In this document: in pieces, positions 8,830 through 11,607 of the stretch | Numbering within the stretch: position 1 is the stretch's first letter | Layout: every line of letters begins with the position of its first letter | Assembly: GCF_014852585.1 (NCBI RefSeq) | Contig: NZ_JACVBX010000012.1 | Location: 186,001-250,000 of the forward strand | Reading direction: 5' to 3' | From: Pseudomonas sp. PDM18 | GTDB lineage: Bacteria; Pseudomonadota; Gammaproteobacteria; Pseudomonadales; Pseudomonadaceae | Length of the DNA: 64,000 bases | Position numbers and translations under genes: made by a program | The notes under the pieces: generated by a model | The model's database searches: none | What the model saw: the letters and a program-made list of their open reading frames with translations, nothing else | What the model was told of the DNA's origin: nothing

Positions 8830-8838
8830 GCATGAACT

Positions 8839-8908
8839 GTAGGAGCGAGCTTGCTCGCGAACCCGGGCCCCGCAGCGGAAGCTGGTTCGCGAGCAAGCTC
8901 GCTCCTAC
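8839..8908. repeat. REPIN, second copy
   Basis: The same 24-base inverted arms as at 4797-4863 (8839-8862 and 8885-8908) with a different 22-base loop. It ends 10 bases from the DAHP synthase stop codon and could also act as a 3' mRNA-stabilising hairpin for cobN or that gene. Confidence 0.9.
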
Positions 8909-8918
8909 GAAAAGCGGC

Positions 8919-10016
8919 TCAGCCCCGGCGCAGCCGCTCCGCCGCATTCAGCAACAGCGCCTCGGTGCCGCTCCAGCCCAGGCAGCCATCGGTTATCGAG
9001 ACACCGTAGCGCAGCTCTCCGGACAACGGCTGGCAGCCGTCGAACAGATGACTCTCCAGCATCACGCCACGCAGCGAGGCATCGCCGGCCACGCGCTGGT
9101 CGAGCACGCTATCCAGCACCGCCGGCTGGCGCAGCGGGTTCTTGCCGCTGTTGGCGTGGCTGCAGTCCACCATGATGCTCGGATCGAGACCGAGCTTCTC
9201 CAGCCCCTGGCGAATCTGCTGCACGCTGGCCGCGTCGAAGTTCGGGCCGGCATGACCGCCGCGCAGCACCAGCTGGGTGTCCGGGTTGCCCTGGGTCTGC
9301 ACCAGCGACGGGCGCCCCAGCGCATCGATGCCGAAGTGCTGGTGCGGGTGCGCCGCCGAGCGCATGGCGTCGGTGGCGATACCGATGCTGCCGTCTGTGC
9401 CGTTCTTGAAGCCCACCGGCAGATCGAGGCCACTGACCATCTCGCGATGTACCTGGGATTCGCTGGTGCGCGCGCCGATGGCGGCCCAGCCCAGCAGGTC
9501 GTCGAAGTAGCCGGCCACCAGCGGTTGCAGCAGTTCGGTGGCGATCGGCAGGCCGCGCTCGAGCATGCCCAGCATCAGCCGGCGCGACAGCTCCAGGCCG
9601 CCGGCCATGTCGCCGCTGCCGTCGAGCTGCGGGTCGTAGACCAGGCCTTTCCAGCCGATGGTGGTGCGCGGTTTTTCAACGTAGGCACGCATCACCAGCA
9701 ACAGCTGGTCGCTCACCTGCGGCGCCAGTTCGGCGAGGCGGTCGGCGTATTCGAGGGCGGAAACGGGGTCGTGCAGCGAGCAGGGGCCGATCACGACCAG
9801 CAGGCGCGGATCGCGGCCATCGAGGACGGCGCGGATCGCCTCGCGACCTTCGCGGACGCGATGGGCCATGGCGGCGGACAGCGGCAGGCGCTGGCGCAGT
9901 TCGGCAGGGCTCGGCAGCGGCTGTTCGCGGCGGCGGGCGGAGGGCAGCGGGAGGTCGAGGACTTCGGCGGAGGCTGCCTGTTCGGGGCGGATCAGGGCGG
10001 AGGTGGAAGCGTTCAT
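8919..10016 (-). CDS. DAHP synthase, class I (3-deoxy-7-phosphoheptulonate synthase)
   Basis: Catalyses the first step of the shikimate pathway: phosphoenolpyruvate plus erythrose-4-phosphate to DAHP. The 365-residue protein has the AroF/AroG/AroH hallmarks VVIGPCSLHDP (metal-binding Cys), RAYVEKPRTTIGWKGL, GFKNGTDG, and VDCSHANSGK. Which aromatic amino acid inhibits it cannot be settled by eye, so no aroF/aroG/aroH symbol is given. It sits between two parts of the B12 locus but is not a B12 gene. Upstream on its strand lie a promoter, an aromatic-rich leader ORF, an intrinsic terminator and a second Tyr-rich leader ORF, implying control by charged aromatic tRNA. Confidence 0.95.
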   Translation of the reverse strand: MNASTSALIRPEQAASAEVLDLPLPSARRREQPLPSPAELRQRLPLSAAMAHRVREGREAIRAVLDGRDPRLLVVIGPCSLHDPVSALEYADRLAELAPQVSDQLLLVMRAYVEKPRTTIGWKGLVYDPQLDGSGDMAGGLELSRRLMLGMLERGLPIATELLQPLVAGYFDDLLGWAAIGARTSESQVHREMVSGLDLPVGFKNGTDGSIGIATDAMRSAAHPHQHFGIDALGRPSLVQTQGNPDTQLVLRGGHAGPNFDAASVQQIRQGLEKLGLDPSIMVDCSHANSGKNPLRQPAVLDSVLDQRVAGDASLRGVMLESHLFDGCQPLSGELRYGVSITDGCLGWSGTEALLLNAAERLRRG

Positions 10017-10036
10017 CTGACTGGCATCCTTGGCCG

Positions 10037-10056
10037 GCGCGGTGGTTTCTCCGCGC
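10037..10056 (-). other. Hairpin between leader ORF 2 and DAHP synthase
   Basis: GCGCGG and CCGCGC arms form a perfect 6-bp stem. It lies 21 to 40 bases before the synthase ATG and just after the leader ORF 2 stop at 10065, with no U-tract, so it could affect translation initiation rather than termination. Confidence 0.4.
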
Positions 10057-10064
10057 TCGGCGCT

Positions 10065-10163
10065 CTATCTAAGTGTTCGTGGCAAGGCTCGTTGGGTGGC
10101 ACGCAGCGCGCTGCTAAATCGCCAGTCGGAGTTGCGGTAATAGCGGTAGTAAGTGGTGTTCAT
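10065..10163 (-). CDS. Leader peptide 2, Tyr-rich, 32 aa
   Basis: A mini-ORF beginning MNTTYYRYYRNSDWRF: four Tyr codons within residues 5-9, then Trp and Phe. It has a good Shine-Dalgarno (AGAGGATC) before its ATG and stops 48 bases upstream of the DAHP synthase start. Such aromatic codon runs in front of an aromatic-biosynthesis gene suggest a ribosome-stalling leader peptide responding to tyrosine supply. No intrinsic terminator lies between it and the synthase gene, so a translational mechanism, or a role coupled to the upstream terminator, is possible. Not recognised from a named family. Confidence 0.6.
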   Translation of the reverse strand: MNTTYYRYYRNSDWRFSSALRATQRALPRTLR

Positions 10164-10233
10164 GGCTTGATCCTCTGTCCGGGCGTGTTGGCCCGATTCA
10201 ATTCGTTGGCAATGTGTTGGCCTTGTGGGCCGG

Positions 10234-10268
10234 AAAAACAAAAACCCCGGTCGGGTTGCCGACCGGGG
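10234..10268 (-). terminator. Intrinsic terminator/attenuator in the DAHP synthase leader
   Basis: Perfect hairpin with 10-bp arms CCCCGGTCGG/CCGACCGGGG (10245-10268), followed on the minus strand by TTTTTGTTTTT. It stands 53 bases beyond the stop of leader ORF 1 and before leader ORF 2, the layout of a transcription attenuator. An 8-bp bulged hairpin (10289-10312) lies between leader ORF 1 and the terminator and could be a pause or alternative structure; the competing antiterminator was not identified. Confidence 0.8.
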
Positions 10269-10321
10269 TTTCATGAATCTGTCTGGTTGGCGACCCTGCT
10301 TGCTAGGGCGCCTGTGGGGTA

Positions 10322-10456
10322 TCAGGCGCGCCTTTGGCTAAACCAATACCCATAGAAGAAATAGCCGGCAGCAGCAGTCAGAACCTGCGCGCGAGCAACT
10401 GCGGAGCCGATGGCACCGAGGCGGGCGAGGGACTGGATGGACAGGCTGGACGGCAT
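10322..10456 (-). CDS. Leader peptide 1, aromatic-rich, 44 aa
   Basis: A mini-ORF starting MPSSLSIQSLARLG and reaching the run GYFFYGYWFSQ at residues 31-41: three Tyr, three Phe and one Trp in eight positions, close to its stop. It has a Shine-Dalgarno (GGAG) six to seven bases before the ATG and a well-placed sigma-70 promoter about 25 bases upstream. The aromatic run is about 70 bases before a strong terminator hairpin, a spacing like that of classical amino-acid attenuators. Control of the DAHP synthase by aromatic aminoacyl-tRNA is inferred. Confidence 0.65.
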   Translation of the reverse strand: MPSSLSIQSLARLGAIGSAVARAQVLTAAAGYFFYGYWFSQRRA

Positions 10457-10480: not shown

Positions 10481-10509
10481 AAGGTACTGCATCGCGCAGC
10501 GCCGATCAA
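10481..10509 (-). promoter_or_regulatory. Sigma-70 promoter for the DAHP synthase leader
   Basis: On the minus strand TTGATC (10504-10509), a 17-base spacer and TACCTT (10481-10486). The start point would fall near 10474, just before the ribosome site of leader ORF 1. Confidence 0.6.
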
Positions 10510-10599
10510 TGACTTGAATCTATCGATCTGATGGACATTGGTCGCACCTCCTACACCCGGTTCGCTACCATGCACGGACGAAATCCGCAGGAAATCCCC

Positions 10600-11607
10600 A
10601 TGAGCGCCCTTCCCCATTTCCCACTGGCAGCCGTCGTCGGCGCCGATGAGCTGAAGCTGGCCCTGTGCCTGGCGGCCATCGATCCGGCCATCGGCGGCGT
10701 GCTGATCGAAGGGCCACGCGGCATGGCCAAGTCCACCCTGGCGCGCGGCGTCGCCGACCTGCTGGACGGCGGGCGCTTCGTCACCCTGCCGCTGGGCGCC
10801 AGCGAGGAACGCATCGTCGGCACCCTCGACCTGGACGCGGCGCTGGGCCAAGGCCGCGCGCAGTTCTCCCCCGGCGTGCTGGCCCACGCTCACGGCGGCG
10901 TGCTCTATGTGGATGAAGTGAACCTGCTGCCCGACCACCTCGTCGATTTGCTGCTCGACGTGGCCGCCAGCGGGGTCAACCTGATCGAACGCGACGGCCT
11001 GTCCCACAGCCACCCGGCGCGCTTCGTGCTAATTGGCACGATGAACCCCGAAGAAGGCGAGCTACGGCCGCAGCTGCTGGACCGTTTCGGCCTCAAGGTG
11101 CAACTGGAAGGTACGCCCGCACCGAGCGAGCGTGCCGAGATCGTCCGCCGCCGGCTGGCCTTCGATGCCGACCCGCAGGCGTTCCTCGCGCACTGGCAAG
11201 CCGCACAGCAGGCTCTGCAACAACGCTGCGTCGATGCGCGCCAACAGTTGGCGGCGATTCCGCTGGATGACGCTGCGCTAGATGACATCGCCGAGCGCTG
11301 CCACGCCGCCGGCGTCGACGGCCTGCGCGCCGACCTCGTCTGGCTGCGCGCCGCCCGCGCACATGCCGCCTGGCGGGGGGCAAGCGCCATCGAGGCGCAG
11401 GACATCGATGCGGTCGAGCACTTCGCCCTCGCCCATCGCCGCCGCCACGCGCCGCCGCAATCAAGCACTCCACCGCAGTCACCATCGAGCCAACCCCAGG
11501 CACCCTCCAACGCCTCCCACGGCGAAGGCCAATGGGGCGAACTGCCCGCGCAGAGCGTCGCCATGGGCGAACGCCGGCAACTGACGGGCTGGCCAAAAAA
11601 GCCCTGA
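10600..11607 (+). CDS. ChlI/BchI-like AAA+ ATPase, probable cobaltochelatase partner
   Basis: A 335-residue AAA+ ATPase of the magnesium-chelatase I-subunit family. It has Walker [10 protein letters not shown] (residues 38-46), Walker B VLYVDE (101-106), and the sensor stretch [20 protein letters not shown]. The C-terminal lid is followed by a Pro/Ser/Gln-rich tail. The ATG at 10600 has an AGGA ribosome site; an earlier ATG at 10531 would add a tail not expected in the family. The organism's context has no chlorophyll genes, and cobN is nearby, so it most likely powers cobalt insertion together with the VWA protein encoded next, which overlaps it by 76 bases. Confidence 0.88.

Follow-up and report, generated by a model that had tools for sequence, protein, structure and literature searches.

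In Pseudomonas sp. PDM18, two short leader ORFs (ORF1 and ORF2) lie upstream of the gene for DAHP synthase, the entry enzyme of aromatic amino acid synthesis. Comparison of relatives supports ORF1 as a ribosome-mediated transcription attenuator, by its aromatic codons, a terminator and mutually exclusive helices in 79 loci. The RNA family known as P15 most likely represents the leader of this gene after termination. ORF2, judged by its conservation, is a real leader ORF. On balance, the two-stage explanation is probable: attenuation at ORF1 is followed by an ORF2 that sets translation of the synthase.

The window is the whole 64,000-nucleotide stretch that was analysed; coordinates are positions in it, and the whole leader and the synthase lie on the minus strand. 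The order promoter, ORF1, hairpin, terminator, ORF2, hairpin, synthase was proposed in a first-pass annotation of the sequence; each element lies where it had been placed, and the order is conserved well beyond chance. The features are as follows.

10481..10509, minus strand: sigma-70-like promoter, with -35 TTGATC (10509-10504), a 17-nt spacer and a poor -10, TACCTT (10486-10481), weak in the window.
10467-10463, minus strand: ORF1 SD, CGGAG.
10322..10456, minus strand: ORF1, 44-codon leader peptide ending GYFFYGYWFSQRRA; ATG at 10456, stop at 10324-10322.
10244..10364, minus strand: match to Rfam RF00627, 'Pseudomonas sRNA P15', read here as an attenuator (103.1 bits, E 2.7e-21).
10342..10351, minus strand: segment 1 (GGGUAUUGGU), which lies on the Tyr-Trp-Phe codons; its partner is segment 2 (helix 96.8% paired).
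10317..10333, minus strand: segment 2, which includes the ORF1 stop; pairs with segment 1 or 3 (folds and alignment).
10305..10314, minus strand: segment 3 (CAGGCGCCCU); pairs with segment 2 or 4 (folds and alignment).
10285..10297, minus strand: segment 4 (AGGGUCGCCAACC); pairs with segment 3, or with segment 5 as the proposed antiterminator (4:5 helix 98.5% paired).
10312-10289, minus strand: bulged hairpin after ORF1.
10241..10272, minus strand: intrinsic terminator (segments 5 and 6) with U-run; 98.3% paired, with C-G/A-U and C-G/U-A exchanges.
10176-10171, minus strand: ORF2 SD, AGAGGA.
10065..10163, minus strand: ORF2, 32-codon Tyr-rich second leader MNTTYYRYYRNSDWRFSSALRATQRALPRTLR; ATG at 10163, stop TAG at 10067-10065.
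10113..10124, minus strand: W motif TGGCGATTTAGC in ORF2, with free third bases fixed.
10074..10079, minus strand: two rare codons close to the end of ORF2, CGA-ACA, that are fixed at the nucleotide level (CGA in 102/107 loci, ACA in 87/107).
10033..10061, minus strand: GC-rich hairpin between the ORF2 stop and the synthase SD.
10031-10027, minus strand: synthase SD, AAGGA; the synthase ATG is at 10016.
10019..10029, minus strand: GGAUGCCAGUC, from inside the synthase SD toward the start codon; complementary to ORF2 GACUGGC-G-AUUU (10127-10116).
8919..10016, minus strand: DAHP synthase, type I, aroFGH family (TIGR00034 aroFGH 426 bits, PRK12755 498 bits).

The closest named synthases in the species collection, those of Pseudomonas sp. 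30_B, Pseudomonas sp. 21 and P. nicosulfuronedens, are 96-98% identical. The first-pass annotation gave ORF1 its correct length, SD and position upstream of the hairpin, but ended it at FSQ; the frame ends ...FSQRRA. Its bulged hairpin, terminator with U-run, and mainly Tyr ORF2 with SD, stop and following hairpin are as described. An upstream in-frame ATG at 10274 gives a 69-aa version of ORF2 (10274-10065) that would read through the terminator hairpin. On the plus strand, a divergent gene (10531-11607; magnesium-chelatase-type subunit by eye) starts near the leader promoter, and the two directions thus share one intergenic region. Positions 8837-8911, between cobN and the 3' end of the synthase, contain a long, nearly perfect inverted repeat (GTAGGAGCGAGCTTGCTCGCGAA...). 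It looks like a Pseudomonas REP-type palindrome, and none of its Rfam matches reaches the cut-offs.

In a covariance scan of 3 kb, the RF00627 match covers the last ORF1 codons, both hairpins and the terminator, and its score lies well above the gathering score of 70 bits, which places it in the family. P15 is present in 25/25 genomes of the genus (own included) and, at E up to 0.001, in 244/298 genomes of the family (239 above the cut-off). In the class it is found in 5/274 genomes, own included, two of them above the cut-off. A homologue of the window synthase lies downstream of P15 in 108 of 110 fetched loci; these were picked to span genera, not at random, and comprise 25 from genomes of the genus itself, the family's 30 best, 30 handles and 20 places selected by hand, and a few others. 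The two exceptions, L026 and L030, are weak matches (30.3 and 28.4 bits). Near the sub-threshold L026 match (genome G024, contig place 705312-705430) is a gene that begins like rpsL by eye; this match is probably a terminator resemblance only. Among 20 tested of the 54 family genomes that lack P15, 19 have synthase matches of 47-53% identity and the twentieth has none; one of the P15-less genomes, G331, has one further match, a 62% fragment. P15 thus travels with this gene. In one locus of the same genus (L025, genome G005) the terminator is shortened (CCCCGGTCGGCCCCCCGGGG), and attenuation there may be weaker.

The P15 locus is presumably linked to P. aeruginosa PA2943. In the PMC literature, RF00627 is not mentioned and PA2943 is mentioned once, in a biofilm context; no account of P15 as an attenuator was found in the passages available there, a body of literature that excludes subscription papers. 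P15 might be a true trans-acting sRNA, with the synthase transcribed from its own promoter and the peptide-like reading incidental. Rfam does file P15 as a gene named sRNA P15, and the available part of one report places it among the sRNAs detected by Livny et al. (PMC2375449). Even so, this explanation is extremely improbable, given the synthase downstream in nearly all loci (the two others being the weak matches), the fixed aromatic codons of ORF1 and the alternative pairings that are kept. In addition, the gap between the terminator U-run and the ORF2 start (median 48 nt) can be as small as 17 nt, which leaves no room for a promoter between them, at least in those loci. A terminated leader would likewise look like an sRNA on a blot.

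A strict promoter scan of the window finds nothing upstream of ORF1. In 72 of 101 distinct upstream regions, the pattern TTGANN-N16-18-TANNNT lies 51-59 nt ahead of the ORF1 ATG; base shuffles would give 0.7. The promoter that had been proposed before ORF1 therefore stands as a conserved sigma-70-like site, although it is missed by the strict scan and its -10 is poor in the window.

The first-pass annotation made its reading depend on conservation of both leaders in close relatives, and both are conserved. Tyr-Trp-Phe-Ser is found in ORF1 in 105/108 loci, with additional Phe and Tyr just upstream; 5-7 aromatic residues lie near the ORF1 end. The Tyr-Trp-Phe-Ser codons form the 5' strand of the first helix. 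ORF1 and P15 together provide a leader ORF with SD and pathway codons and an intrinsic terminator ahead of the gene; in the alignment, an exclusive antiterminator pairing is kept in relatives and the regulatory codons lie on segment 1. No antiterminator partner had been found by eye. A candidate can now be proposed, a six-segment arrangement of the his type in which 1:2, 3:4 and 5:6 would terminate and 2:3 and 4:5 would antiterminate; L139 departs from it by keeping 3:4.

These pairings were scored in an alignment of 79 of the 96 distinct P15 regions. In the terminating state, 94.7% of cells are paired and covariation is 0.066, against 0.041 when shuffled and at most 0.024 when slid. In the antiterminating state, 90.4% of cells are paired (98.5% in the 4:5 helix) and covariation is 0.113, against 0.055 and at most 0.046. 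For both states 0/500 shuffles reach the observed value; the shuffles preserve base content only and ignore relatedness. Pair changes on both sides in the antiterminating state number 2 in this alignment, compared with 2.4 in shuffles, and are thus not in excess; for further pair types, neither state rises above shuffles.

Transcription attenuation by the first leader, as first proposed, is borne out by this comparison, with which single-locus folds agree partly. When leaders are cut in the terminator loop and masked to mimic a ribosome stalled at Trp, all 9/9 loci form 2:3 and bring segment 4 together with the terminator 5' arm. In L001 (the window) and L061, segment 4 meets the arm in the register GGGU:ACCC, not GCC.ACC:GGU.GGC. 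Ribosome-free cut leaders form 1:2 with 3:4 in 6/9 cases; the other three (L029, L075 and L107) prefer 2:3 already. The comparison of folds with and without a stalled ribosome, which had been suggested as a check, thus agrees with the proposed switch in all nine of these stalled leaders, two of them in the other register, and in six of the nine free ones. A mask placed exactly at the ORF1 stop partly covers segment 3 and leaves 3:4 partial, while 3:4 is complete with a mask ending a few codons earlier; this suggests that termination follows once the ribosome has passed further along or dissociated. With the terminator 3' arm included, the terminator forms in every ribosome state in six loci, so the switch must act co-transcriptionally. 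Beyond the family, both 2:3 and 4:5 form in L114, with other letters and irrespective of the mask; in L116 a 4:5-like helix forms under the mask. L139 contains the complementary segments, yet its stalled fold keeps 3:4.

The proposed first stage is as follows. One transcript from the sigma-70-type promoter would carry the two leader ORFs and then the DAHP synthase gene, and a ribosome on ORF1 would read its Tyr, Phe and Trp codons. If reading is fast and the ribosome leaves, 1:2, 3:4 and 5:6 would form and the transcript would end as the short RNA P15. If the ribosome stalls on the aromatic codons, it would cover segment 1; 2:3 would then form, segment 4 would be free to form 4:5, and polymerase would read on. 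The pairing logic of ORF1 is supported by the alignment; the response to starvation is predicted.

ORF2 was counted in 107 loci, with L028 dropped and L082, L083, L092 and L094 anchored by hand. Because loci were anchored with patterns that demand TGG, in most cases followed by (C/T)G, the frequencies of Trp and of those bases are in part a product of the method. No such selection bears on the third positions of CGA and TTT or on the codons near the stop. An SD is present in 105/107 loci and at least three Tyr codons in 97/107. After the Trp, CGA and TTT are each found in 103/107 loci, so that W-R-F is written TGG-CGA-TTT. Four codons ahead of the stop, CGA is found in 102/107 loci, followed by ACA in 87/107. 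The stop is TAG in 97/107 and lies 36-50 nt ahead of the synthase start in 103/107. Across the synthase genes of these loci, the share of CGA among Arg codons is 3.2%, of TTT among Phe codons 7.8% and of ACA among Thr codons 4.2%. Within ORF2, from its start to the Trp, Arg is encoded by CGC (123), CGT (51) and CGA (4).

Both leaders are recognised by pattern in 75 of the 79 named-set loci with upstream sequence (L222 is without), including those of Halomonas, Chromohalobacter, Onishia, Franzmannia, Cobetia and Halotalea. The ORF1 pattern is loose in this set, and at least L229 and L234 look like wrong ORF1 calls. The four loci with no recognised ORF2 are from Salinicola (L229, L231, L234 and L235); their synthase is of the window type. 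Among 30 order-level loci (L112-L141), leaders are seen in L112-L116 and L139; L114-L117, L125 and L139 were read by eye. L115 and L139, which are from other families of the order, contain an ORF with the same TGGCGATTT, and L114 and L116 have the attenuator and synthase with no recognised ORF2.

ORF2 has two forms. The short form is that of the window; the long form is common to fluorescens-type Pseudomonas and Halomonadaceae and has the consensus WRF(S/T)xxRSxQxAxSxRSxxGG. The W-to-stop distance is 19 codons for the window's genus, compared with some 36 for the long form. Over the ten codons before W in long forms, diversity is highest at the third position (0.326 vs 0.273 and 0.303); over six gap-free codons before W in short forms, it is lowest there (0.369 vs 0.593 and 0.631). 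Diversity by codon position does not by itself prove that ORF2 is coding. No description of a second leader before DAHP synthase was found in the accessible passages of the PMC literature, subscription papers lying outside its scope.

W-R-F and an R-T-x-x end are common to the ORF2s, which is what could be expected if ORF2 encoded a TnaC-type arrest peptide that senses a free aromatic amino acid. Arrest peptides need fixed spacing in the tunnel, however, and the varying distance from W to the stop does not provide it; the constraint also falls on codons as well as residues. An arrest peptide is therefore very unlikely.

The stretch separating the ORF2 stop from the synthase SD contains a hairpin of 7 bp or more in 90 of 91 distinct regions (mean z -2.8), a count that leaves out L029, L083 and L088-L090. 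A ribosome finishing ORF2 must therefore enter this hairpin. A scan of the window finds no terminator-like site after ORF2, which points to control of synthase translation. By eye, the end of ORF2 overlaps the gene start or comes very close to it in the Halomonadaceae loci L227, L228, L232 and L236-L238; this also points to translation. From this anatomy and its conservation, the favoured reading is that the position of the ribosome on ORF2 controls translation of the synthase. Stage 2 would operate only on read-through transcripts, through the Tyr codons, the fixed W-CGA-TTT and an ORF2 end just ahead of the hairpin. A ribosome that reaches the ORF2 stop would open the hairpin next to the ribosome site of the synthase. 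In the genus of the window, and in several more, an ORF2 ribosome would also break a pairing between the W motif and that site.

In the window, the pairing of ORF2 GACUGGC-G-AUUU with GGAUGCCAGUC has an energy of -17.0 kcal/mol, the best of 98 windows in the locus. Pairing of the W motif with the ribosome site recurs in several genera; it reaches p<0.05 in only 18 of the 88 distinct loci, and in 24/88 the best pairing is at the W motif. When start regions and ORF2s are swapped between loci, a start region favours its own ORF2 (mean rank 0.27 across 25 clusters, where 0.5 would be expected); the preference in the reverse direction is weak (0.41). Of 77 loci, covering those up to L088, 5 have a ribosome site that opens more easily, by over 3 kcal/mol, once ORF2 is masked. 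Sequestration of the ribosome site by leader RNA is thus clear in some genera and absent in others, and universal sequestration by the W motif is rejected. The last Tyr codon lies 2-6 codons ahead of the W motif in 92/107 loci, not on it; a ribosome stalled on the Tyr codons would mostly abut the motif, which counts against stage 2.

The second-stage control first proposed for ORF2 thus gains from the conserved Tyr-rich frame with no terminator after it in the window, and may apply through ribosome-site pairing in some genera only. The two-stage sensor as a whole fares likewise: its ORF2 part, in which ORF2 would sense Tyr limitation, is what we infer from sequence, in the face of the few loci with an opening-energy gain and the position of the Tyr codons.

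Three other roles for ORF2 bear on this reading. Stage 1 may be the sole sensor, with ORF2 a coupling or protecting ORF that keeps the leader free of Rho and opens the hairpin at a constant rate. The conserved spacing from stop to gene, the abutting hairpin, the overlapping or nearly touching ends in several Halomonadaceae (by eye) and ribosome-site opening energies that differ little between ribosome states are all consistent with this; the Tyr enrichment and the nucleotide-fixed codons are not needed for plain coupling, and the explanation is rather unlikely. Secondly, ORF2 may overlap a structured RNA that is itself a sensor or binding site, so that translation and structure jointly set synthase translation. 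The candidate parts are the TGG-CGA-TTT core, the CGA-ACA tail and the long-form hairpin with GCC(G/A)CC:GGUGGC (a possible H-type pseudoknot), all of them conserved down to the nucleotide; we regard this as unlikely to a slightly greater degree. Thirdly, ORF2 may be a second transcription attenuator that works via Rho instead of an intrinsic terminator. The stretch from the W motif to the stop looks C-rich in the window by eye, and tandem transcription attenuators are known in mgtCBR, as described in excerpts of PMC3641672. Since the window has no terminator-like site after ORF2 and the hairpin before the gene has no U-run, this is improbable.

Several pairings of the W motif were rejected. 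A switch between the W motif and the ORF2 stop region (A:B vs B:C) is no better than shuffled (mean z +0.37), with p<0.05 in 4/88 loci: L062, L081, L089 and L090. An unbroken helix of about 10 bp is found only in L089 and L090; L088, from the same genus, is without it. In L089 and L090 (genus g228), 15 nt separate the ORF2 end from the gene, and over about 10 bp the ORF2 stop region beside the SD pairs with the W motif and its 3' flank; this is perhaps a compact version of the device. With segment 4 of P15, the W motif forms at least 8/9 pairs at one position in 55/106 loci, against 16 and 13 at neighbouring positions. This pairing was set aside because both stretches are nearly invariant and L015 and L075 do not compensate (by eye); L139, which has other attenuator letters and keeps the W motif, also counters it. 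A programmed frameshift into the synthase is rejected because the frame of ORF2 relative to the gene varies (by eye). The W motif was likewise rejected as a DNA-binding site: TGGCGATTTASC has a single exact copy in the genome, at the W motif of ORF2.

RNAalifold gives no consensus structure for short-form ORF2, and Rfam scans of six long-form loci give no trustworthy family for ORF2 itself. The long-form alignment comprises 58 of 66 distinct long forms and required TGGCG[AC]TT[TC]A, so invariance of the motif there is by construction except at two bases. It contains a hairpin with covarying pairs and a GCC(G/A)CC:GGUGGC helix that is 98.3% paired, with one compensatory case (L224). A proposed pseudoknot is 92.3% paired; its covariation (0.055) is lower than that of the control slide +3 (0.090). 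The pseudoknot, or a switch between helix and W motif, is a lead only. Fixation of TGG-CGA-TTT and CGA-ACA at the nucleotide level is accounted for by none of the pairings tried.

Ribosome-mediated attenuators of the his, phe and trp type are known from enteric bacteria, and the his operon has a six-segment arrangement. The leader described here shares with them regulatory codons on segment 1, exclusive helices and an intrinsic terminator. It differs in its place before DAHP synthase, its mixed Tyr/Phe/Trp codons and the second leader ORF that follows. In C. glutamicum, an aroR leader before aroF is said to provide attenuation ahead of a DAHP synthase gene; it is a single leader from an unrelated bacterium, whereas two leaders are present here. 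Under the nomenclature aroA(I-alpha-Y), which we take to denote a DAHP synthase gene, attenuators have been predicted before aroA(I-alpha-Y)-tyrA operons of Vibrio in Merino's database (excerpts of PMC1173090). As here, attenuation is predicted before a gammaproteobacterial operon that starts with DAHP synthase; neither a leader peptide nor a second leader is named in those excerpts, and the table entries covered do not include Pseudomonas.

Tandem leaders have precedents elsewhere. In Salmonella mgtCBR, transcription is controlled by both mgtM and mgtP, whose signals are ATP and proline; PMC3641672 calls these tandem attenuators a singular example. The two systems are alike in having two short tandem ORFs with SD in one leader mRNA. 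In contrast to mgtCBR as described there, the leader here combines two aromatic ORFs with a biosynthetic gene, and in the window the second ORF has no terminator after it. The ermB gene also has two leader peptides and uses translational attenuation, but it senses erythromycin and not amino acid supply (excerpts of PMC8274638).

For RF00627, the sequence is that of P15 itself and the window scores above the family cut-off; the family is named as an sRNA and is read here as the terminated leader of the synthase. A listed sRNA is thereby recast as a cis attenuator in 244/298 family genomes, an antiterminator is proposed for it, and a second conserved leader ORF is added. Should the second leader act on translation or respond to another amino acid, such a tandem leader would be rare and, to our knowledge, the first in amino acid biosynthesis. 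If ORF2 overlaps a sensor RNA, the gene would have two different aromatic sensors in series. The fixed rare codons of ORF2 are a directly testable puzzle.
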